From Pseudomonadota bacterium (GTDB lineage Bacteria > Myxococcota_A > Polyangia > Fen-1088), in the NCBI GenBank assembly GCA_017881245.1, contig JADGRC010000251.1, positions 1 to 46,166 of the forward strand: 46,166 nt of DNA, in the 5' to 3' direction. Below are positions 10,181-46,166 of this stretch, in pieces (the first letter of the stretch is position 1; every line of letters starts with the position of its first letter). The notes under the pieces were generated by a model. It did not search any database. It was not told where the DNA came from and saw only the letters and a list, made by a program, of their open reading frames with translations. Both the position numbers and the translations under genes were made by a program.

Positions 10181-10849
10181 TTGAAAACCCCAGGCATCAG
10201 TCGAGTTCCAGCGCCCGCGCGAACGCCCGATACGGAGCTCGTGGCGCGCTGCTGTCTCGGTGACCGGGGCGCTTGGCGCGTCTTATACGAGCGGTATGCG
10301 GCGCTGGTCTACCGTTTCTTGTCGGCGTTGGGAATTCGCGATCCAGAGCGGGAGGATGCGTGCCAGGACGTGTTCATGGCCGTTTACCGGAGCCTGCCCA
10401 GTTTTAGGGGCGAATCCCAGCTGTCCACTTGGATCTACCGCATCACAGCTCGCACCACGGGCAAGCTCATTCAGAAACGCCGCCTTCGAAGTGCGCTCGC
10501 GACCATGATGCTGAGCGAGCCGATGCCGGCACCGGCCGATCCCTCGGAGGAAACCGCCCGCAGCCTGATGCTTGATCGCATGTTGGATCGCTTGCATCCA
10601 AAAAAGCGGATGGTGCTCGTCCTGTTCGAGCTCGAGGGTGTTCCGGTCGAAGAAATCGCTCGCATCGCGGAATGTCCGACGAATACGGTTTGGTCGCGGC
10701 TCCACCACGCCCGCTTGGATTTGACCAAGATGGCCGAGAGGGAGAGCAAGAGTCGCCTGGGCAGATCCGCCGTGAGCGCCGACGACTTGGGGAGCCAGCC
10801 GCCTCTCCCCGCGAGATCCGAGAACTCCGACACTGGGGTCGCGCGATGA
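10181..10849 (+). CDS. RNA polymerase sigma factor, ECF subfamily
   Basis: A 222-residue sigma-70 family factor. Region 2 spans about residues 18-90: DTELVARCCLGDRGAWRVL, the core-binding helix (PEREDACQDVFMAVYRSLPSF) and the -10-recognition part (STWIYRITART). Region 4 spans about 128-180, with VLVLFELEGVPVEEIARI and the recognition helix PTNTVWSRLHHARLDL. A Ser/Asp-rich tail follows. The start is a TTG at 10181 with a weak GGAACAAAG upstream; no ATG precedes region 2. The stop overlaps the next gene's ATG (ATGA, 10846-10849), so translation of the FecR-like partner is coupled, as is usual for sigma/anti-sigma pairs. It probably directs transcription of envelope genes on a cell-surface signal. 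Confidence 0.9.
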   Translation: MKTPGISRVPAPARTPDTELVARCCLGDRGAWRVLYERYAALVYRFLSALGIRDPEREDACQDVFMAVYRSLPSFRGESQLSTWIYRITARTTGKLIQKRRLRSALATMMLSEPMPAPADPSEETARSLMLDRMLDRLHPKKRMVLVLFELEGVPVEEIARIAECPTNTVWSRLHHARLDLTKMAERESKSRLGRSAVSADDLGSQPPLPARSENSDTGVAR

Positions 10850-12594
10850 AAGATCCGCGAGAAGGGTCGCGCGAAGGGGCGAGCGCGCGCTGGTTGGCGG
10901 CTCCGGCCAATCGAGTCGAGGCGGAGTTGCGGCAGGCGCTCGATCACGCCGCGGCACGAGAGGCCGACGAGGTCGCCCTTCGCCGGGTTTGGGCGCGGCT
11001 CGCCGAAATACCCGCGTTGGTTCCCTCCGTCGCGGATGGAGACGACAGACGGGATCAAGAGCGCGATGGCGTTCGTGAGCGGGACGCCCGCATTCCCCCA
11101 GTGCGTTGGCCCTGGATCGTCGCGGCATCTCTTGCTGGGGCTACCGCGACGTTGGCCTTCATGTTGATCGAGACCAAGTCGGAGTTCCGTGCGGAACGGG
11201 GAGGACAGTCTGACCTCGCGCGACTGTCCGGCAGGACCGAGTCGGCAGGAATCGACGCGGGCCAGAGATCGACCTTGGTGGCGCCCGCCACGGTCCGCAC
11301 CGCTTTCGGGGAGACCTTGCATCTGTCCTTGCGTGGCGGGACGGAAGTCGTCGTCACGTCCGAATCGACGCTGGTCCTGGACCAGAACGATCGTCCGGCC
11401 GTGTCGGCTGGTGAAGTGCAGTTTCACGTGCCGCATCAGGCGGCCGGCCAGACGTTCGTGGTGGCCGCGGGGGAATATCGGATCGTTGTGGTCGGCACCC
11501 GTTTTCGGGTTCGCGTCAACCCGGCGAACGCGGCCGTGGACGTCGACGAAGGGGTCGTGGAAATCTGGACCGACCATCGCATCGCGCAGGTCGTCGCGGG
11601 AGAATCGTGGGTCAGCCCCGTTCGAACGAGGGAAGGCGCGAGCACCGCAGCCGATGGTACGCACGATTCGGGCGCGGCGAAGGTGCCGCGTTCGCCTTTT
11701 CCGAAGGAACGGGACCTCTCGCGGCTCGGGCGATCATCGCCTGCGACTGGCACGCTCGGCGCAAGCGGCGCAATCGGATTGACCGACGCGGTTGCCAGGG
11801 ACTCAAGACGGATCCTGGCTCTGTCCGAGCCCTCGTCCGGGACCGACTTCGGCGCGGCATCGGGAAGAAGGGGGGGGGCGCGATATAGGGACGCCCTTCT
11901 TCCTGCAGCGGCGGACGAGATCGCGCACAAGGTTCCCTTGGCGGCACCGCCTCCAACCTCGGCGGACGTTCCTGCCCCTCCGCTCTTGGCGTTGCTGGCG
12001 CGGACGGCTCGCGCGGGTGGGGACGCAAGGAAGGCTCTCGGACTTTATCGAACCCTCGCGGAGAGGGGCGGCGCCGCGGGCGAGAACGCCGAGTACGAGA
12101 TGGGTCGCGTATTACGCGATGGCTTGCATCAGTCCCGCGAGGCCGTGGCGGTATGGCGCGCTTATCGCGCTTCGCATCCCCATGGGCTCTTGCGGATCGA
12201 GGCCGACATTTCCGTCATCGAGACCCTGGTTTCCCTGGGGGACAGGACCGGAGCGGTGTCCGAGGCATCCGACTTCATTCGTCGGTACCCGGAAAGCGAG
12301 CGACGTTCGGAGGTCGCGCGCCTGGCAGGAGATCTGTTCCGTGAACGGGGTGAATGCGGCGATGCGATCCGCGCGTACGACATCGCTCTTGGTCGGGCAC
12401 ATACCGGGCGGGACGTTGCCGACGCACCTTCCTTTCATCGCGCGGGTTGCTTGCTGCGCGGCGATCAGACACAGGGTGTCGCCGCTTTGCGTTCGTATCT
12501 TGACTCGTTTCCGTCCGGGCGCTTTCGCGGAGAAGCGCAGCGTCTGTTGAACGGGCCTCCTTCCGTTGAGCCCCCAGCGGTCGCTCCGCGGTAA
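10846..12594 (+). CDS. FecR-like membrane protein with C-terminal TPR repeats (putative anti-sigma factor)
   Basis: 582 residues. The N-terminal 85 are cytoplasmic-type and helical, a place for sigma binding. One membrane segment lies at about 88-108 (WPWIVAASLAGATATLAFML). A FecR domain follows at about 140-240: TVRTAFGETLHLSLRGGTEV, then VSAGEVQFHV, YRIVVVGTRFRVRVN and AVDVDEGVVEIW. A disordered linker leads to TPR-like helices from about 390 to 570 (ALLARTARAGGDARKALGLY, ESERRSEVARLAGDLFRERG). The ATG at 10846 overlaps the sigma stop. In FecR/ECF systems the protein senses an outer-membrane partner and controls the sigma factor; here that role is inferred from order and domains. No zinc anti-sigma motif is seen. 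Confidence 0.85.
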   Translation: MKDPREGSREGASARWLAAPANRVEAELRQALDHAAAREADEVALRRVWARLAEIPALVPSVADGDDRRDQERDGVRERDARIPPVRWPWIVAASLAGATATLAFMLIETKSEFRAERGGQSDLARLSGRTESAGIDAGQRSTLVAPATVRTAFGETLHLSLRGGTEVVVTSESTLVLDQNDRPAVSAGEVQFHVPHQAAGQTFVVAAGEYRIVVVGTRFRVRVNPANAAVDVDEGVVEIWTDHRIAQVVAGESWVSPVRTREGASTAADGTHDSGAAKVPRSPFPKERDLSRLGRSSPATGTLGASGAIGLTDAVARDSRRILALSEPSSGTDFGAASGRRGGARYRDALLPAAADEIAHKVPLAAPPPTSADVPAPPLLALLARTARAGGDARKALGLYRTLAERGGAAGENAEYEMGRVLRDGLHQSREAVAVWRAYRASHPHGLLRIEADISVIETLVSLGDRTGAVSEASDFIRRYPESERRSEVARLAGDLFRERGECGDAIRAYDIALGRAHTGRDVADAPSFHRAGCLLRGDQTQGVAALRSYLDSFPSGRFRGEAQRLLNGPPSVEPPAVAPR

Positions 12595-12598
12595 GACC

Positions 12599-13798
12599 AT
12601 GCGGCGCGGTGCCGTCATCCTGATCGCGCTGGTCGCCGCTTCGCTTGGCGCTTGTACAGAGCACCTGTTGCTGCCCGCCGCCGATCAGGGCATCGGTGGC
12701 AGCGGGGGGCGCGTCGCGGGAACAGGTGGAACGATGGCCGGCACCGGCGGAAAAATGGTGGGCTCGGGTGGCGGCCCATTCGAGGCGGGCGGGCGAGGCG
12801 TGGGCTTCGGTGGGGATCCGTTCGGTCAAGGCGGCCGGGGCGGAAACCTAGTTGGGGGGTTTGGGGGTGCGGTGTTTGGTCAAGGTGGCCGGGGTGCCTT
12901 CGGAGGGTTCGATGGCGGCGGACGCGGATCAAGGTGTCCCTGGGGCATTCAGAGAGCCGAAGTCCTTTTCGCGCTGGGAAAAAATGCCTCCATGGGCAGG
13001 GAAAAGCTCGGTCCAGATGACACGCGATTGAACGTCGTTGAATCGATAATGCGATCGCAGATCGCTTCGCACCAAAACGCGATCAGTTTTGGATATGAGG
13101 ACTTCCCCAGCATCTCATCCTGTTCCGCGATGGACGGTTGTTGCGTGCGGGACGGGGCAATTCCACCGTCTCTCTCTCCGGCGACGATTCCGGAAGCACT
13201 GCTGTGCCTGCCGCCCGGGATGATGGACGGTTGTGCCTCGACGATCGACGCGTGTCCGATAGGAGCCGCGTTCGAAAAGGCATCCAATCTTCTCAACGGC
13301 ACCGATCCCAACGATAGGTATACGGAGAAGCATGTGGTCCTTATCGTTGACAGTGACCCGAGTTGCGTCACCGAGAATCCGCAGTTTTCTTGCGAGCAGG
13401 CGGTTAAGCAACTCGTCACGCTGACGAATAACTCCGTGACCACGAGCGTGGTGGCGTTGGGTGTGGACGCGGGAACGCCTAGCTCCTGTTTGGCCAGAAT
13501 CGCCTCGGCCGGCCTCGACACTCATGGGATTTGGAAGGTCACGACTCCCATGGAGGTGGATTCCGCGCTCGGAATGATTCTGAATGATGCGGCCAAGCCG
13601 GCCTGCACTATCCACCTCTTCAGGAATCAAATCGATTCCGGCTCCCTCTCCGTCTGGGTCGACAACAAGCCGATCTCTCCCAACGAATGGAAATTCTTTC
13701 AGGAAGGGCCGTACCCGAGGATTCAGGTCTTCGGTGGCTCGTGCGCCATGATTCAGGGAGTCCGAGATCAAGAGATAGAGATTTACGGCTGTCCTTGA
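12599..13798 (+). CDS. Glycine-rich lipoprotein with a von Willebrand A-like domain
   Basis: 399 residues. The signal peptide MRRGAVILIALVAASLGAC ends in a lipobox with Cys19 as the lipid site. Residues about 31-105 are a low-complexity GTGG/GGRG linker (units such as VAGTGG, MAGTGG, FGQGGRG), a type common in myxobacterial surface lipoproteins. From about 108 a domain resembles von Willebrand A: first strand RAEVLFALGKNASMG, then KHVVLIVDSDPSCV, VTTSVVALGVDAG and LDTHGIWKVTTPMEVDSALG. The usual metal site DxSxS reads GKNAS, so metal binding is doubtful. Eleven or more Cys suggest disulfides in the exported form. It begins 4 bases after the FecR/TPR stop and is likely cotranscribed. Function is unknown; a surface adhesion or sensing role is an inference. 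Confidence 0.75.
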   Translation: MRRGAVILIALVAASLGACTEHLLLPAADQGIGGSGGRVAGTGGTMAGTGGKMVGSGGGPFEAGGRGVGFGGDPFGQGGRGGNLVGGFGGAVFGQGGRGAFGGFDGGGRGSRCPWGIQRAEVLFALGKNASMGREKLGPDDTRLNVVESIMRSQIASHQNAISFGYEDFPSISSCSAMDGCCVRDGAIPPSLSPATIPEALLCLPPGMMDGCASTIDACPIGAAFEKASNLLNGTDPNDRYTEKHVVLIVDSDPSCVTENPQFSCEQAVKQLVTLTNNSVTTSVVALGVDAGTPSSCLARIASAGLDTHGIWKVTTPMEVDSALGMILNDAAKPACTIHLFRNQIDSGSLSVWVDNKPISPNEWKFFQEGPYPRIQVFGGSCAMIQGVRDQEIEIYGCP

Positions 13799-13812
13799 CG
13801 CGGTAACCCAAA

Positions 13813-13894
13813 GGGATGGTGTGGCCGTCGCGTTGACCCTCCAACTCCCTGAGGGGATGGCGCCGCCGTAATGTTGACCCTTCACACACTGGGT
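13813..13894. repeat. Two copies of an imperfect 41-bp direct repeat
   Basis: GGGATGG at 13813-13819 and 13854-13860, and TTGACCC at 13833-13839 and 13874-13880, recur with a spacing of exactly 41 bases; the bases between are partly conserved. It follows the vWA-like lipoprotein stop and precedes the Met-Gly lipoprotein promoter region. A short inverted repeat, CACAC...GTGTG, lies at about 13883-13899. Confidence 0.55.
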
Positions 13895-14018
13895 GTGGCG
13901 CGGTGCGGTGGGTTCGGGTGCGCTATCCGCGCACGTTCGTCTTTTTTTTGAAGTGGCGGGGGACATCTGGTCACCAATGGAACGGCTCACGAATATTTCA
14001 CCACCCGCGGAGGACACC

Positions 14019-14654
14019 ATGACCCGGTCAAGGCACCTGAAACTTTCCACAATGCTCGTCGCGTTCGGTGGCGCCGTCGCGCTGATGGCCGTGGGCCTTC
14101 CCGGCTGTGGAGGCAGCGATGCCACCACGGAGGATTCCGGGGCAACCGAGACGGGTGGCCATGTCGGAACCGGCGGTGGATTCGGTAGCTCAAGCGGCGG
14201 CCACACCGGCACCGGTGGGTTCACAGCAAGCGGAACCGGTGGCTCCAGCTTCTCGACCGGTGGCTCCAGCTTCTCCACGGGTGGTTCCTTCGGTTCGACG
14301 GGTGGTGCCAACACGGGTACCGGTGGCGCCGACATGGGAATGGGCGGCGGGATGGGCATGGGCATGGGCGGCCGGATGGGCAGGGGCATGGGCATGGGCG
14401 GCGGGATGGGCATGGGCATGGGCATGGGCGGCCGGATGGGCAGGGGAATGGGAATGGGCGGCGGGATGGGGATGGGCATGGGCATGGGCGGCCGAATGGG
14501 TGGCGGCATGGGCGGCCGAATGGGCGGCGGCATGGGCGGCCGAATGGGTGGCGGCATGGGCGGCCGAATGGGCGGCGGCATGGGCGGCCGGATGGGCAGG
14601 GGAATGGGAATGGGAATGGGTGGTGGCGCGCCTGACGCTGGCGCCGCCGACTGA
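14019..14654 (+). CDS. Lipoprotein with a long Met-Gly repeat tail
   Basis: 211 residues. ATG at 14019 has an excellent ribosome site (GGAGG, 5 bases away). The signal peptide ends at a lipobox (AVGLPGC, Cys30). Residues 31-104 are a Gly/Ser/Thr linker (for example GGSSFSTGG twice). From about 106 to 203 the chain is only Gly, Met and Arg: units MGMGGG, MGGRMGRG and, later, repeated GGRMGGGM, with about 31 Met. It ends in a short Ala/Asp tail. No domain is recognised. A Met-only cluster on an exported lipoprotein could bind Cu(I) or Ag(I) or act as a surface scaffold; both are inferences. The gene has its own 220-base upstream region and a strong terminator downstream. Confidence 0.8.
   Translation: MTRSRHLKLSTMLVAFGGAVALMAVGLPGCGGSDATTEDSGATETGGHVGTGGGFGSSSGGHTGTGGFTASGTGGSSFSTGGSSFSTGGSFGSTGGANTGTGGADMGMGGGMGMGMGGRMGRGMGMGGGMGMGMGMGGRMGRGMGMGGGMGMGMGMGGRMGGGMGGRMGGGMGGRMGGGMGGRMGGGMGGRMGRGMGMGMGGGAPDAGAAD
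14335..14631. repeat. Tandem coding repeat (6-bp and 24-bp units) in the Met-Gly lipoprotein
   Basis: About 300 bases are built from ATGGGC-type hexamers and, from about 14490, from a 24-base unit coding GGRMGGGM repeated about four times nearly identically. The high identity of units points to recent expansion and a region likely to vary in length between strains. Confidence 0.85.
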
Positions 14655-14762: not shown

Positions 14763-14795
14763 AAAGGCCGGTGCCGCGGGGCGCCGGCCTTTCTT
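14763..14795 (+). terminator. Rho-independent terminator
   Basis: A 13-base stem (14763-14775 with 14780-14792, one G-T pair) closes a four-base GCGG loop and is followed by a CTT-ended T tract. It lies about 110 bases after the Met-Gly lipoprotein stop. The A run before the stem could let it serve the opposite strand too, where the gene ending at 14924 arrives. Confidence 0.8.
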
Positions 14796-14923: not shown

Positions 14924-15457
14924 TTACGGCTTGAAGTGATCGGGCCCGATCTCGCCTCGCAGGTGCTCGACGACGCTTTCTTCGAGGAGCTCCTGCATGG
15001 TCTGGCCACCATAACGCGCGGCGATTCGATCGTCGTATTCGTCGGCTATGATGGCCACGTCGCGAACGGTGGCGGTTAGTTCCTCCGCGGTCATCGTGGG
15101 ACCCCCGAGCAGCGTGTGTGAGAAAATCACGACCTCACCCGCGGGTACGTACGCGAAGGCGCCAAAACGCAAGAGCGCGTTCATTTCGAGCAGTTGCATG
15201 GCGAGCGGCACCTCCATGGATACGCCTTTCACCAACTGGGCCACGCACCTGACTACGGCGCGATCGGCGTTCCACGGCAACACGCTGATCATGACCAGCG
15301 ACGATCCCTGCTTGACGACGTACAAACCGTCATCGATCTTGCGGAAGGCGGAGCTCTTTTTCAGAGCCTTCTCGATGGTCTGGCAACTCGATTTCGCGGC
15401 GGCGTTCATGGACATTCGGTAGCACGAATTGGCTCCCGGTACGAGACACTTGTCCAT
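14924..15457 (-). CDS. YbjN / type III secretion chaperone-like fold protein
   Basis: A 177-residue soluble protein. Its order of elements (IEKALKKSSAFRKIDDGLYVV, then SSLVMISVLPWNADRAVVRCVAQLV, a helix PLAMQLLEMNALLRFGAFAY, strand EVVIFSHTLLGG, and helix MTAEELTATVRDVAIIADEYDDRIAARYGG) matches the YbjN / secretion-chaperone-like superfamily, whose members bind partner proteins. The start is uncertain: ATG 15457, 15415 and 15409 are all in frame and none has a clear ribosome site; the conserved part begins near 15400. It is divergent from the zinc-ribbon protein, so both may share a regulatory region. Its partner is not known. Confidence 0.7.
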   Translation of the reverse strand: MDKCLVPGANSCYRMSMNAAAKSSCQTIEKALKKSSAFRKIDDGLYVVKQGSSLVMISVLPWNADRAVVRCVAQLVKGVSMEVPLAMQLLEMNALLRFGAFAYVPAGEVVIFSHTLLGGPTMTAEELTATVRDVAIIADEYDDRIAARYGGQTMQELLEESVVEHLRGEIGPDHFKP

Positions 15458-30031: not shown

Positions 30032-31978
30032 ATGGCAACATCGTCGTGGGACGTCCGCCCAGTTGGTCAGAGTTTTTGGATTCAAGCCGCTGCGATTGGG
30101 AAGTCCAAAAACAGACGGATGGTTCTGACGCTGGCGCTTGGCGTTGGCCTCGGCCTCGGGGCCTGTACCGCCGCGGTGAATGACCCGCCAGGGGGCGTCC
30201 CAGGAACGGGTGGTTCGGGGGCCGCGAATGCTTCGGGTGGCTCAGGCGTGGGCCAAGGCGGCGTTGGCCCGGGTCTCGGGGGCGCGGGTGCTCCTCAGGG
30301 CACGGCAGGTTCGGGCGTCAACCCGGGTTCCGCGGGCGCCGGCGTGGTGACGGGACTTGGCGGCTCGGCTGTCCCTGCTGGAACCGGTGGGGCCGCCGTG
30401 GTTTGCAATCCCGGGACCGTGGCCCCTGGTCGCGCTCCGCTGCGTCGGATCACCAAGTTCGAGTACGGCAATACGGTTCGCGATCTTTTTGGTGATACGA
30501 CGTCCCCGGAGACCGCCTTGCCCGCCGAGACGCTCACCAGCGGGACGGCCATTTTCGGGAACAACGCGGACGCGCAAAGCGTGCCCAACATCCTCGCGCA
30601 AAATTACGAGACCGTTGCAGAGGGGATCGCTCAGCGCGCGACGGCAACGCCCGCGGCGCTCGGGAAGCTGGCGACCTGCGGCAGCACCATCACCGCGACG
30701 GCGGTCACGGCCACCGAGGATGCTTGTGCGAAAAGCATAATAGCGGCGCTGGTGCCGAGGGCCTACCGCCGTTCCATTACGACGGCGGAGTCAGACGAGC
30801 TCGTCGCATTGTACAAGCTGGTCCGGCCCGCCAATACCTTTGCATCCGGCATCGCGGCGGTCATCGAAGGCGTCCTGCAGTCTCCCGATTTTCTGTATCG
30901 CGTCGAATTTGGCGTGGCCGACACGGCCAAACCATCGCTGAAACGGCCCACGGGGCCCGAGATGGCGACTCGCCTTTCGTACCTGTTCTGGGGAACCATG
31001 CCTGACGCCCCGTTGACCGCAATGGCGGCGTCCGGGGCTCTTCTCACGAATGCCGGGGTCATGACTCAGGCCAAGCAGATGCTGGATGATCCGCGATCAC
31101 ACCCCATCATCGCTTACTTTTTCGATAGCTTGTTGCCGATCAACACCCTTACGAGTTTGGAGCGCGACAAGACGCTCTATCCAACATTCAACCCGACGAT
31201 CGGTTCGCTGATGCATCAGGAAACCCAGCGCTTCCTCGAGTACGAGATCTACGAGGGTCCGGGGACCTGGCCCGATATTCTTACGGCTCCGTACACCTTC
31301 GTGAATGATGCCCTCGCGACTTACTACGGAATATCCGGGGTCACCGGGTCGACTTTCCAAAAAGTTGCAACCGATCCGAAAAAGCGAATCGGCTTGTTGT
31401 CGCAGGGAGGCTTCCTAGCGGGGTCAACCATCTCGAACAATACCAACCCCGTGGCGCGCGGGTCGTTCATCGTGCAGAAGCTGATGTGCCGGATCATCCC
31501 CTTGCCGACAGGCGCCATCTTGGCGATGGTCAAGCCGCCCGAGCCGTATTCGGCGAACACAGGACGCGAAAGATACGCCCTGCACCGCTCCCAACCGGTT
31601 TGCATGACATGTCATCAGTTCATGGATCCCGTCGGTTTGACGTTGGAAAACTACGACCCTGTGGGTCTGTGGCGCGACACGGAGAATGGCGAGATGATCG
31701 ACCCGAGCGGTACGGTCCCGGGCGCGGATGGAACAGCCACGGGTCCCACCGTCGCGGGGCCGATCGAGATGATGAAGGCCCTTGCCGGCGCGGACGCAAC
31801 CCAGACGTGCTTCGCGACCCACTGGCTTGAGTATGGCTACGGCAGAAGCATGGATCCGGCGGACGCCTGCACGCAGCAGTCTGTGCAGACCGCATTCAAG
31901 GGCGCCGGTTACAACGTGAAGCAGTTGTTGCTGTCCCTGACGCAAACCGACGCATTCCTGTACTTGCCCGCCCAGTAA
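30032..31978 (+). CDS. DUF1592 domain-containing lipoprotein (cytochrome-linked, planctomycete-type)
   Basis: 648 residues. A Lys/Arg-rich N-terminus precedes a signal segment (MVLTLALGVGLGLGAC) with a lipobox, Cys45. A Gly-rich GGSG/GTGG linker runs to about residue 125. The conserved part is the five-module family: DUF1587-like APLRRITKFEYGNTVRDLF, DUF1595, DUF1592 (LSYLFWGTMPDAPL), DUF1588 (RIGLLSQGGFLAGS, VARGSFIVQKLMC) and DUF1585, with FMDPVGLTLENYDPVG. One CxxCH haem-like motif (CMTCH, Cys524-His528) is present. The reaction is not established. The start at 30032 has GGAAAGG upstream; an ATG at 30119 would start at the signal core. It is followed 12 bases later by the DUF1552 partner. 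Confidence 0.88.
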   Translation: MATSSWDVRPVGQSFWIQAAAIGKSKNRRMVLTLALGVGLGLGACTAAVNDPPGGVPGTGGSGAANASGGSGVGQGGVGPGLGGAGAPQGTAGSGVNPGSAGAGVVTGLGGSAVPAGTGGAAVVCNPGTVAPGRAPLRRITKFEYGNTVRDLFGDTTSPETALPAETLTSGTAIFGNNADAQSVPNILAQNYETVAEGIAQRATATPAALGKLATCGSTITATAVTATEDACAKSIIAALVPRAYRRSITTAESDELVALYKLVRPANTFASGIAAVIEGVLQSPDFLYRVEFGVADTAKPSLKRPTGPEMATRLSYLFWGTMPDAPLTAMAASGALLTNAGVMTQAKQMLDDPRSHPIIAYFFDSLLPINTLTSLERDKTLYPTFNPTIGSLMHQETQRFLEYEIYEGPGTWPDILTAPYTFVNDALATYYGISGVTGSTFQKVATDPKKRIGLLSQGGFLAGSTISNNTNPVARGSFIVQKLMCRIIPLPTGAILAMVKPPEPYSANTGRERYALHRSQPVCMTCHQFMDPVGLTLENYDPVGLWRDTENGEMIDPSGTVPGADGTATGPTVAGPIEMMKALAGADATQTCFATHWLEYGYGRSMDPADACTQQSVQTAFKGAGYNVKQLLLSLTQTDAFLYLPAQ

Positions 31979-31990
31979 GGAGTCAGTTCC

Positions 31991-33370
31991 ATGGCAAAGT
32001 TTCGTTTAAGCCGCCGAGCCGTGATACGTGGGGCCGGCAGTATCGCCATCGCGCTTCCCTGGCTTGAGGCCATGGGGCCGAGCCGCTACGTACGCGCCGC
32101 GGGCACAGCAGCAAAACGTTTCGTCACCGTGTTTCAGCCCGGCGGAACCGTCATCGACAAGTGGCGACCGACGGGCACCGAGACGGCGCCGGTTTACGGA
32201 CAGATCCTCGCGCCCCTGACGCCGATACAGAACAAACTGCTCATCGTTGACGGCCTGCAGATGTCGAGCGCGGTCGGCGAGCAGCATCAATCCGGAATCC
32301 TAGCCTGGCTGACGGGAACGATTCAGGCGGGCGGTGGGACTGGATATGCCACGGGTCCCTCCATCGATCAGGTGCTCGCCAGCAAACTGTCCCTCAACAA
32401 GAAGCTACAGAGTCTCCAGATGGCCGTGCGCTTTGCGACCGGCAAGTCGCACGGGTTGCTTTCGCCCATCAACGCGGCGAATTTCGAGAACACCACCAAG
32501 TTTGCTCCGATTCCGCCGCAGCTCGATCCCCAGGCGATCTGGACCTCTCTCTTTGGAAGTCTGACCCCGACGACGGGCACGACGACCGGTCCCGACCCGG
32601 TGGCGGCGAGACGAAAGTCGATCCTGGACTTCGTCGACAAGAAGTACGTGACCCTATCGGCCCGTCTGGGCGCCTCCGACAAAGCCAAATTGGATGACCA
32701 CCTCGCGAAGATTCGGCTGCTCGAGCAGAGCATCACGATCACGACAGCGACAACGGCCACCTGCATGGCGCCGACGAAGGTGGACACGACGGGTTACAAC
32801 CCGACGTCGGGGCTGAAATCGGCGGACGACGGGTCCCTCGTCGACACGGCGACGGATAGCGCGATTCCGAAGGTCGGCCAGTTCATGATGGACATGGCGG
32901 TGATGGCGCTGGCGTGCGACATGACGGGGGTTGTCTCGTTTCAGTGGAGCGACACGGAGGCCAAGCACACGTTCCCGTGGCTGGGTTTGATGAACCATCA
33001 CCACTTCTATCAGCACGATGGTGGGTTTCAGCCCATCCAATGCGCGCAAATCGATACCTGGTACTCCACGATGCACCTGTATCTGCTCCAGGCGATGGCG
33101 AAGGTCGACATGGGTGGACACACCCTGCTCGACGAGAGCGTGGTGTTCTTCGGTTCCGAAATCTCGACGCCAAACACCCACCAGAAGCTGAACATGCCCT
33201 TCATGCTGGCGGGGGGTGGTGGTGGGTTGCGAACCGGTCGTTGGGTTTCGTATCCCAATCTGCCATCTCACAATGGTTTGTTGGTTTCGATCTTCAATCT
33301 CTTCAGCGATACCCGAACGACGTTCGGTACCGCTCAGTACGCGACGGGGCCCCTCGCGAATATCGTCTGA
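31991..33370 (+). CDS. DUF1552 domain-containing exported protein
   Basis: 459 residues. The N-terminus (KFRLSRRAVIRGAGSIAIAL) has a twin-Arg-like RR motif in a Tat-type signal. The body is DUF1552: KRFVTVFQPGGTVIDKWRP, SSAVGEQHQSGILAWLTG, ATGPSIDQVLA, RKSILDFVDKKYVTLSARLG, HHFYQHDGG, ESVVFFGSEISTPNTHQKL and NMPFMLAGGGGGLRTGRW. It resembles an alkaline-phosphatase-like fold (conserved His/Asp), but the activity is unknown. It has an AAGGAG ribosome site just before the ATG. It always accompanies DUF1592 proteins in known genomes, so the two should form one exported system. Confidence 0.9.
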   Translation: MAKFRLSRRAVIRGAGSIAIALPWLEAMGPSRYVRAAGTAAKRFVTVFQPGGTVIDKWRPTGTETAPVYGQILAPLTPIQNKLLIVDGLQMSSAVGEQHQSGILAWLTGTIQAGGGTGYATGPSIDQVLASKLSLNKKLQSLQMAVRFATGKSHGLLSPINAANFENTTKFAPIPPQLDPQAIWTSLFGSLTPTTGTTTGPDPVAARRKSILDFVDKKYVTLSARLGASDKAKLDDHLAKIRLLEQSITITTATTATCMAPTKVDTTGYNPTSGLKSADDGSLVDTATDSAIPKVGQFMMDMAVMALACDMTGVVSFQWSDTEAKHTFPWLGLMNHHHFYQHDGGFQPIQCAQIDTWYSTMHLYLLQAMAKVDMGGHTLLDESVVFFGSEISTPNTHQKLNMPFMLAGGGGGLRTGRWVSYPNLPSHNGLLVSIFNLFSDTRTTFGTAQYATGPLANIV

Positions 33371-33401: not shown

Positions 33402-35756
33402 TCAGCGTCCGCGTAGCAGGCCGTGGTGGGCCGGGGGCCGTGCTTTTTTCATCGCGACGCTGATGCTCTGTGGTTTGCCCGCGGACACGGCCAGGCGGCG
33501 GTTGTTCGTAATGTACCCGCTCTTGACGAAGGTCAGCTCATAGGTGTTTCCGGGATTGAACCGGATTGCGAGTGGAGTGCGGCCAAGGACTTGTTTCTTC
33601 GTACGGACCACCGCGCCAAGGGGACTGGTGGTGATTCGAATCTGCACGGGCTGATGTCGAATCGCGAACGCCGCCGGGGTTTGACCGCTTCCCCCGCGCT
33701 TTTCTGCGTCGGCGGTCCGGGAGGATTGGGTCGAGCGTGGTTGCCCACCCAAGGCTCGCGCGGAGGCTCCCGTGGCGCTTGTCTGGCCGGAACCATGGTT
33801 GTTTTGCCGATCCGGCTTGTCGCGCGGGCTCTGCTCTGCCTCGTCCTCCCCAACGACGGCGGCGGCGTCGGGCACCAAGCGTCCCAAGAGGCGTTCCTCG
33901 TCGTCGTCGAATACTTCGGTCCCGGCGGGCGTCCTGTCGGTTCCGTCTTTCCCGGACAACGCCGATTCCTTCGGCGGGCGGTTGGCGCCGGCGGCGATCT
34001 CGGTGCCCGCGTCCGTTGTCTCCAACCGCGCTCGTATTCCGTGAGCCGAAGTCGAAGCATCAATGACGATGGCCTCGCCGCGCGACTGCCCCGCCTTGTC
34101 GAGGGCAGCATCCCGCGCGAGGGTGATCGCCTTTTCGCTCGAATGTTCGTCCGATTGGATGTTGGCGGACTCGTTCGACGCTTTGGGGGGCGACAGCCGA
34201 GGGCCGTCCGCCGTGGCGGAGGACGAGGACGACGGGGCCGAATCGCCCGCCCTTTGACGCGCATCCGAGGCGCCAATCCGCTCACGTCCCGCCCACTGCG
34301 CCAACCAGCGAATCCCAAAGACTGCGCTCAACATGCATAGCGCGCCGAGAACAAAACCCACGCCCACGCGGTTGCGTCTGGGCACCCGTCGATGAGGAAT
34401 GGGGGAGCGAGAGGGTGGGCTGCCCTTTGTCAACGGGAGCGAGCCGCCCGTAGTGGTGACGGATTCGGGTTCGGGCCGGAGCGATTCCACATCGGGGAGG
34501 GCGGGCGTTTTCGGGCTCGCGACCTCGCGCCGGGCGTCGGCCTTCTGGGGTTTAACGGGGGCGGGGGTGCCGACCGGAATCGCGATTGCCGTCGTGGCCG
34601 CGACCGCCGTCGTGGTCGCGACCGCTGTCGTCGCCGCGACCGCCGTCGTGGCCGAGACCGCCGTCGTCGCCGAGACCGCGGTCGTCGCCGCGACCGCCGT
34701 CGCAGCCGCGACACCGAGCGCGGTCCCGTCCACGTCGGACAATTCCAGCGAGCTTCCGGCGCTCAGCTCGCCCGCCTCATCCACGAATAGGGGGGCTTGG
34801 CCCTCGTCGCGTCGCGGCCGGCCGATCGGGGACACGCCGTCGCGTCGGGCGAGCTCCGCCAGCCAGACTTTCAACTCCGTTTGACCAGCGGAATGGTACT
34901 GGCTCCGCAAGACCCGCTCGACGTCCGCCAGCATTTGGTCCGCTGTCTGATACCGCCGCGCCGGCTCTTGTTGCATGGCTCGGTTCACGATGGCGCTTGC
35001 TTCCGGTGACAGATACGGATTCAGCTCTTCGGGCGGGCGATACTCCGCCCGCTGCGCCAGCATCATGGATTCCAGTTCGGAGTCCGCTTGGAACGGGCGA
35101 CGGCCGGTCAACATCAGATACAAGACCGTTCCGACCGAAAAGATGTCGGCCCGCGCGTCCAAAGGTCGGCCCAGAGCTTGTTCGGGCGACATGAAACCGA
35201 TCTTCCCTTTTATAACCCCGGCCAAGGTCTGCTCGCGCTTCCTCTCCGCCTTGGCGATGCCGAAATCCGTCAGCTTGACCTCGCCCTGCTCGCTGATGAG
35301 AACGTTGTTCGGGCTGACGTCGCGGTGGACGATGCGCAGGGGACGTCCGTCGGGTGCACGTTTGGCGTGCGCGTACGACAAGCCTCGACAAAGCTGCGCG
35401 GCCACATACAGGGCCAGGGACGACGGCCACGGGTGATCCGGACCCGTCGCACGCGCGCGATCCATCACCTGCTCCAGGTCCCATCCCTCCACCAATTCCA
35501 GCACCAGAAACGTGCGATCACCCGAGACGCCCACGTCCAGAACTTGAACGATGTTTCCGTGACTGAGGCTCATGGATATGTGAGCCTCGTCGAGGAACAT
35601 GTTGCGAAACTGCGGATCGGCGGAGAAAGCGGTCAGCACGCGCTTCAGTACGACCGGTTTTTGAAAACCTTCCGCCCCATGCTGCATAGCCAGAAAAATC
35701 TCGGCCATGCCTCCGTCGGCCAGCTTACCGACGATCGTGTAGCGGCCGCGCGCCAT
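33402..35756 (-). CDS. Serine/threonine protein kinase with PEGA domain
   Basis: 784 residues. Kinase domain about 5-275: glycine loop GKLADGGMAEIFLA, ATP lysine in VVLKRVL, catalytic HRDVSPNNVLI, DFGIAKA, the activation-loop end GFMSPEQALG and GRRPF. A long disordered region follows, with seven 6-residue TTAVxA repeats (about 348-390). One membrane segment at about 462-482 (VGVGFVLGALCMLSAVFGI) separates cytoplasmic kinase from the exterior part, a Ser/Asp/Glu-rich linker and a C-terminal PEGA domain at about 705-775 (ITTSPLGAVVRTKKQVLGRT to SGYITNNRRLAVSAGK). It likely senses envelope state and phosphorylates cytoplasmic proteins. It is convergent with the DUF1552 gene, 31 bases apart. Confidence 0.94.
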   Translation of the reverse strand: MARGRYTIVGKLADGGMAEIFLAMQHGAEGFQKPVVLKRVLTAFSADPQFRNMFLDEAHISMSLSHGNIVQVLDVGVSGDRTFLVLELVEGWDLEQVMDRARATGPDHPWPSSLALYVAAQLCRGLSYAHAKRAPDGRPLRIVHRDVSPNNVLISEQGEVKLTDFGIAKAERKREQTLAGVIKGKIGFMSPEQALGRPLDARADIFSVGTVLYLMLTGRRPFQADSELESMMLAQRAEYRPPEELNPYLSPEASAIVNRAMQQEPARRYQTADQMLADVERVLRSQYHSAGQTELKVWLAELARRDGVSPIGRPRRDEGQAPLFVDEAGELSAGSSLELSDVDGTALGVAAATAVAATTAVSATTAVSATTAVAATTAVATTTAVAATTAIAIPVGTPAPVKPQKADARREVASPKTPALPDVESLRPEPESVTTTGGSLPLTKGSPPSRSPIPHRRVPRRNRVGVGFVLGALCMLSAVFGIRWLAQWAGRERIGASDARQRAGDSAPSSSSSATADGPRLSPPKASNESANIQSDEHSSEKAITLARDAALDKAGQSRGEAIVIDASTSAHGIRARLETTDAGTEIAAGANRPPKESALSGKDGTDRTPAGTEVFDDDEERLLGRLVPDAAAVVGEDEAEQSPRDKPDRQNNHGSGQTSATGASARALGGQPRSTQSSRTADAEKRGGSGQTPAAFAIRHQPVQIRITTSPLGAVVRTKKQVLGRTPLAIRFNPGNTYELTFVKSGYITNNRRLAVSAGKPQSISVAMKKARPPAHHGLLRGR
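34588..34713. repeat. 18-bp tandem repeat, seven units, in the kinase linker
   Basis: Seven units of the form GCCGTCGTGGCCGCGACC (34588-34605 to 34696-34713), differing at a few bases, encode the Thr/Ala/Val repeat of the kinase. They may vary in number between strains. Confidence 0.85.
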
Positions 35757-46038: not shown

Positions 46039-46166
46039 TCAGGCGGAGCCAGCCGAGCCGCCCGCCGCAGAGCCGGCCGAGCCGCCTGCCGCGGCGCCAG
46101 CCGAGCCACCTGTCGCGGCGCCAGCCGAGCCGCCTGCCGCGGAGCCAGCCGAGCCGCCCGCCGCGG
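46039..46166 (-). CDS. 3' end of a gene encoding GGSAG repeats (partial)
   Basis: On the minus strand the frame reads a chain of AAGGSAGS / AAGGSAGA units and stops with TGA at 46041-46039, ending in GGSAGSA. Only 42 codons are visible; the gene begins beyond the right edge. Such Gly-Ser-Ala repeats are typical of secreted or lipoprotein linkers in myxobacteria, like the GTGG linkers elsewhere in this window. The plus-strand frame (AEPAEPPAA repeats) is also open but has no start codon after ligA. This is a low-complexity tail, so the product cannot be named. Confidence 0.55.
   Translation of the reverse strand, partial: AAGGSAGSAAGGSAGAATGGSAGAAAGGSAGSAAGGSAGSA
46043..46166. repeat. 24-bp tandem repeat, five units, at the right edge
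   Basis: Units 46043-46066, 46067-46090, 46091-46114, 46115-46138 and 46139-46162 align without gaps and differ at a few third positions. A sixth begins at 46163 and is cut by the window edge, so the array may be longer. Confidence 0.9.

Follow-up and report, generated by a model that had tools for sequence, protein, structure and literature searches.

What might be the role of an exported protein whose last hundred residues or so are drawn from only three amino acids? The question is raised by a small lipoprotein gene (14019-14654, plus strand, stop codon 14652-14654) in the window, as the whole 46,166-nucleotide stretch of DNA analysed here is called, for which the initial annotation had suggested binding of Cu(I) or Ag(I) by clustered methionines. 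The gene is supported by its translation and by the end of an ortholog in a congeneric genome, and it encodes 211 amino acids. The parts described in the rest of this paragraph lie on the plus strand. A Shine-Dalgarno-like GGAGG is read in the sequence 5 nt 5' of the ATG (14009-14013), in keeping with the ribosome site of its own that had been ascribed to the gene. Residues 1-29 (14019-14105), as read from the translation, form a signal peptide that ends in the lipobox LPG, and the following Cys30 (MTRSRHLKLSTMLVAFGGAVALMAVGLPGC) is the predicted site of lipidation, which agrees with the lipoprotein anchor proposed earlier. According to the Lol rule, a Gly at position +2 of a lipoprotein predicts sorting to the outer membrane, and this rule applies to the Cys30 protein. 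Cys30 opens a Gly/Ser/Thr-rich linker (residues 30-105; 14106-14333), which leads into the tail (residues 106-203; 14334-14627) and finally into the C-terminal cap APDAGAAD with the stop codon (14628-14654).

The tail is built from 57 Gly, 31 Met and 10 Arg residues exclusively, in exact agreement with the earlier estimate of about 31 Met in roughly 98 residues. It is devoid of His, Cys, Asp, Glu and Lys, carries a charge of +10 from its ten Arg and spaces its Met residues in 13 MxM and 23 MxxxM but no MxxM arrangements. Searches of Pfam (E 0.01) and NCBIfam with the 211-residue protein returned no match, including none to a chaperonin domain or to DUF5320 (PF17253), and a single-sequence AlphaFold2 prediction, a type of model that is often poor, gave no fold (mean pLDDT 44). 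We propose that the C-terminal tail is disordered or extended in a polyproline-II-like manner and that the protein has no folded domain. The sole match in a PDB search, a low-complexity stretch of pyridoxal kinase, was dismissed as spurious, and a search of the window against Rfam found nothing. A long antisense open reading frame (13115-14581) and another one in the +2 frame across the repeat were both dismissed as artefacts of the repeat.

Several features delimit the gene. A terminator-like hairpin (13918-13934) with a T run, found by inspection and by an automatic scan (together 13918-13950, plus strand), marks it off from the lipoprotein gene upstream. Between the gene and its convergent YbjN/TY-Chap1 neighbour (14924-15457, minus strand) lies a GC-rich hairpin with a 13-bp stem and with A and T runs on its flanks (14763-14792), which is a candidate bidirectional terminator with a calculated folding energy of -27.2 kcal/mol and a counterpart of -29.0 in the congener; it is missing from the list of the automatic terminator scan. 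A terminator belonging to the gene had been claimed before, and this conserved hairpin may fill that role, but it is placed 108 nt 3' of the gene, farther downstream than had been implied. The YbjN/TY-Chap neighbour provides the synteny anchor, with about 97% amino acid identity between window and congener at a dS of about 1.0. Beside it, at the same convergent position, the congener (G001) carries the end of an ortholog, GGMGGRMGGGMGGGPADAGAVD followed by a stop codon, with PADAGAVD as the counterpart of the cap. The M-G-G-R/G pattern is retained there in partly different codons, for example the Arg codon CGC that never occurs in the tail of the window. This single ortholog is visible for 22 residues, 14 of which belong to the repeat, where Met is kept; the upstream half of the congener gene was not found, and the contig ends within the repeat.

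At the DNA level the tail is an imperfect array with a 60-bp unit (91% alike) and a 48-bp unit (98% alike), which matches the nearly identical repeat noticed earlier. Two 20-codon (60-nt) units differ in three codons, and all three differences are synonymous, where about 23% would be expected by chance (P ~0.012). The gene is regarded as real because of the congener ortholog, the synonymous-only changes between units and the counterpart of the downstream hairpin, and as far as sequence can tell its earlier description as a genuine expressed unit holds. The tail appears to be maintained by selection. Free replacement of Met by other residues, named in the initial annotation as a point against its reading, is not seen in the 14 repeat residues of the congener, although some positions of the array alternate between Met, Gly and Arg, and the comparison argues weakly in favour of that reading. 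The repeat number given here may be wrong, since the window is one contig of a draft assembly in 534 contigs and the congener contig breaks inside the same repeat. Three loci from other genera of the family (L039-L041) carry a different, cysteine-synthase-like gene at this position, so the gene appears to be genus-restricted there; overall, the protein is classed as a low-complexity lipoprotein that appears to be confined to the genus.

The Met content of the tail is specific, because it reaches 31.6% compared to 1.64% in the Gly-rich linkers of ten sibling lipoproteins encoded in this genome; ten long genes of the window contain 1.56% Met. Such linkers are frequent in this organism, as 10 of 27 lipoprotein-like open reading frames in a 585 kb sample of its genome have a Gly/Ser/Thr-rich linker after the Cys. 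Within the class, 3 of 290 genomes contain a match to a DNA pattern for MGMGG[x]MG; in the own genome this gene is the only match. No homologs were detected by a protein search of the genome contigs. Matches in G033 and in other genomes of the class were discarded as Gly/Ser/Thr-rich only, and no fetched locus passed a filter for dense Met.

Wording akin to that of the tail recurs elsewhere in the genus. A CueO-like multicopper oxidase on contig C462 of the own genome (L328:1140-2744) has a Met loop of tail-like Met/Gly/Arg composition (MGRGMGRGMGMGMGM), which reads GGMMGMMGMSGGMGRGMGRGMGMGMGMAG. The enzyme has Pfam Cu-oxidase domains, its best NCBIfam match is CueO (300 bits, under the 525 cut-off of that model), and in another genus its ortholog (61% identity) has a shorter loop of Met and Gly at that site. 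The next gene after the oxidase encodes a Ca-type cation ATPase. On contig C429 of the own genome, a lipoprotein-like protein (L305:1450-2487) that matches nothing in Pfam or NCBIfam combines a CTTCH haem-type motif with a Met/Gly/Arg-rich C-terminal tail, GRGMGMGGRGMGMGMGGMGMG; its neighbourhood also encodes a response regulator and a histidine kinase. The congener has MGCMGMGGRGGRNMGCGM in a von Willebrand-type lipoprotein. The exported examples of the genus thus include two redox or metal proteins.

Given the specific Met enrichment and the parallel in the copper oxidase loop, the single likeliest function is that of a lipid-anchored, disordered Met/Gly/Arg brush that acts as a weak, many-site sponge for Cu(I) or Ag(I), a reading held tentatively and at less than even probability. 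Cys30 and the flexible Gly/Ser/Thr spacer would present the 98-residue tail at the outer envelope. Its Met groups (MxM, MxxxM), with Gly in between, would allow any three Met residues to meet and to hold a Cu(I) or Ag(I) ion transiently. Such thioether capture might limit copper damage or pass copper on to exported copper oxidases, and the Arg residues could keep the chain soluble or make it stick to anionic surface polymers. We infer lipidation, location, metal binding and physiological role alike. Precedents for the chemistry exist. Met-only sites bind Cu(I) weakly, and a flexible domain with many Met residues has been proposed as a 'Cu sponge' (PMC11840665); the Met-only MxMxxM site of Ctr1 has been described as selective for Cu(I) and Ag(I) (PMC9117721).

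The initial annotation had named CusF and PcoC next to Ctr1 as known analogues. CusF and PcoC likewise are exported and use Met for Cu(I), but they are small folded domains with defined sites and therefore poor models for a protein without such a domain; membership in this type is rejected given the absence of any Pfam or NCBIfam match and of an AlphaFold2 fold. The all-Met Ctr1 motif is closer, and so is the Met-rich loop of CueO, which is exported, flexible and Met-dense and occurs with the same Met/Gly/Arg wording in the CueO-like oxidase of the own genome. The CueO loop is part of a folded oxidase, whereas the tail of the window protein hangs free from a lipid anchor and comes with no enzyme. 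Dense Met, MxM or MxxM spacing and export, the sequence marks of CueO loops and Ctr1-type motifs, are shown by the window protein, with export predicted from its lipobox. Their association with copper genes is not, as no copper transporter, chaperone or oxidase is present among the annotated genes of the 46 kb window. CorE-type copper sensors are expected to carry a Cys-rich tail, and the nearest ECF sigma factor (10181-10849) has none according to its sequence. Copper is also argued against by a large survey of low-complexity regions in prokaryotes (PMC6821194), where regions enriched in Met were associated with chaperones and those enriched in His with metal binding. The suggested Cu(I)/Ag(I) binding is therefore plausible in light of the oxidase loop, but it is tempered by the lack of copper genes among the annotated window genes and of His and Cys in the tail, by the +10 charge and by the occurrence of Gly-Met and Met-Gly-Arg stretches in proteins that have nothing to do with copper.

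The last point emerged from a search of public genomes, in which the DNA pattern was found at at least 116 loci. Among the 116 matches listed, classified by motif and in a few cases only by a full domain search, are 11 likely multicopper oxidases, nine GroEL tails, six FeMo-co/DUF5320 proteins and 90 others, the latter including many Planctomycete proteins. One of the likely oxidases belongs to Nitrosospira (L132, GGRMGMGGMGGGMGRGMRMRG). Nitro_FeMo-Co proteins (PF02579; L222, L237, L178, L185, L133, L183), some with DUF5320, contain a long Met/Gly/Arg stretch worded nearly like the tail, and L222 and L237 match DUF5320 (PF17253) in Pfam. These proteins of anaerobes resemble the window protein in a very similar stretch (GRGMGMGRGMGRGMGMGGGMG; L178, L222, L237) but differ from it by a folded N-terminal domain, a coiled-coil-like C-terminal segment and the lack of a lipobox or any visible export signal. 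Because similar stretches occur in PF02579/DUF5320 proteins, in GroEL tails and in many Planctomycete proteins, composition alone is not diagnostic of copper.

The strongest competitor, which is somewhat improbable in our estimate, is a purely physical brush devoid of metal chemistry, in which a surface-anchored, flexible or polyproline-II Gly-rich chain with mildly hydrophobic, flexible Met and positive Arg residues would stick to unfolded proteins, polysaccharide or extracellular DNA. A model for it is the GGM tail of GroEL, which is also C-terminal, made almost solely of Gly and Met, and flexible or polyproline II (PMC12571646). The polyproline II helices formed by these tails (PMC12571646) and their functional importance (PMC11978752) make them a reasonable guide to the tail of the window protein, even though GroEL is a cytosolic chaperonin with a 24-residue extension whose Gly/Met segment lacks Arg, whereas the window tail is exported and 98 residues long. 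The same survey that counts against copper speaks for a brush, because it links low-complexity enrichment of Met and Gly with chaperones and that of Arg and Lys with nucleic acid binding and finds myxobacteria most enriched in such regions (PMC6821194); the genome studied here is probably myxobacterial too, judging from the style of its lipoproteins and from its relatives. The missing AlphaFold2 fold and the commonness of Gly-rich lipoprotein linkers in the genome fit as well. Against it stands that the genome's own Gly/Ser/Thr linkers, which would serve as brushes, have only about 1.6% Met and that the best parallel in the genome for the Met/Gly/Arg composition is the loop of a copper oxidase.

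Alternatively, the tail might be a near-neutral expansion without specific function. A Gly-Thr-Gly-Gly linker would have turned Thr (ACG) into Met (ATG) by a single transition, and the resulting ATGGGC units would have been multiplied by slippage or unequal exchange. The near-identical repeats and the bias towards GGC among the Gly codons (75%, compared to 47% in the window genes) point to recent duplication, the gene is absent from its position in the other genera examined, and Gly-rich lipoprotein linkers abound in the genome. We nevertheless consider this reading unlikely. The two alignable 60-nt units differ only synonymously, the congener, at a dS of about 1, retains both the same C-terminal cap and the Met/Gly/Arg pattern, the latter spelled with other codons, and further exported proteins of the genus also contain Met/Gly/Arg stretches (on contigs C429 and C462 and on C340 of the congener).

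More doubtful is a role as an oxidant sink, in which surface Met residues would react sacrificially with hypochlorite or other oxidants and be restored by exported methionine sulfoxide reductases, a mechanism proposed for MrpX and BcrX. The window protein resembles these in being small, exported and Met-rich, and its genome has MsrP (458 bits) as well as a fused MsrB-MsrA whose signal resembles a lipobox. The presence of these enzymes says little, since the MsrP and MsrA models also match 8 and 12 of 14 control genomes, respectively. In Azospira and Brucella, Met-rich exported peptides encoded beside ECF sigma factors serve in hypochlorite resistance (PMC8315932). The window tail differs from MrpX and BcrX in being lipid-anchored and rich in Gly and Arg, and it contains neither Lys nor Asp and hence no MXKDX repeats, the pattern that defines BcrX (PMC8315932). 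The operon of msrPQ with an ECF16/NrsF pair is not found either, as msrP is located on contig C64, the neighbours in the window are unrelated and no msrP, msrQ or NrsF-type gene is among the annotated window genes. Conversely, no gene for a Met-rich peptide stands out in the 3.3 kb locus of msrP. A further point in favour of an oxidant sink comes from Gluconacetobacter tumulisoli, where a ferritin-family (Dps-like) reading frame is followed, some 55 nt downstream and on the same strand, by the gene for a short lipoprotein (L164:2158-2589; both within L164:2158-3256). It resembles the window protein in having a lipobox and then little beyond a Met-Gly tail but stems from an unrelated lineage, and its tail contains His and Cys and lacks Arg; no copper gene was noticed in its 8-kb locus. 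A globin gene is found farther along in this locus.

That the ATGGGC repeats are kept for G-quadruplex formation at the DNA or RNA level, the protein being incidental, is highly improbable and was rejected by synonymous shuffling: the coding strand of the tail does have 37 GGG runs and six quadruplex motifs, but 437 of 1000 synonymous reshufflings of the same protein give as much motif coverage, and the signal is explained by coding because a GGG run is unavoidable wherever Met is followed by Gly.

Returning to metal binding, it is conceivable, if rather unlikely, that the protein represents an undescribed class of envelope lipoproteins whose sole functional part is a long, low-complexity Met/Gly/Arg tail, a sponge of renewable thioethers that would take up Cu(I)/Ag(I) or oxidants outside the cell, and that the tail is an interchangeable module shared with exported redox proteins of the genus, namely the multicopper oxidase and the cytochrome-like lipoprotein. 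Should the tail bind Cu(I), hardly any protein route to copper buffering in the envelope would be simpler, as it would require a lipid anchor and Gly-spaced Met residues but no fold, and the copper oxidase with the same wording in the same genome would make it a natural experiment on how the composition of low-complexity sequence relates to metal chemistry. A tail that binds no metal would instead be a clean counter-example to the equation of 'Met-rich' with 'copper'.

Some further features of the window deserve mention. Upstream of the gene (10181-13798), an ECF sigma factor, a FecR-domain protein with TPR and a Gly-rich lipoprotein are encoded consecutively; the relatives of this lipoprotein within the family are all distant (26-30% identity), and none was found in the congener. 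Two more tandem arrays are present. One with an 18-bp unit in about seven copies (34581-34712) lies inside a minus-strand gene for a Ser/Thr kinase with a PEGA domain, and the other with a 24-bp unit (46043-46166) is situated at the contig end, just past a gene for NAD-dependent DNA ligase, where it may coincide with the contig break. Finally, an adjoining pair of genes (30032-33370) encodes a DUF1592/1588/1585/1595/1587 (PSD/PSCyt) protein and a DUF1552 (HXXSHH) protein.
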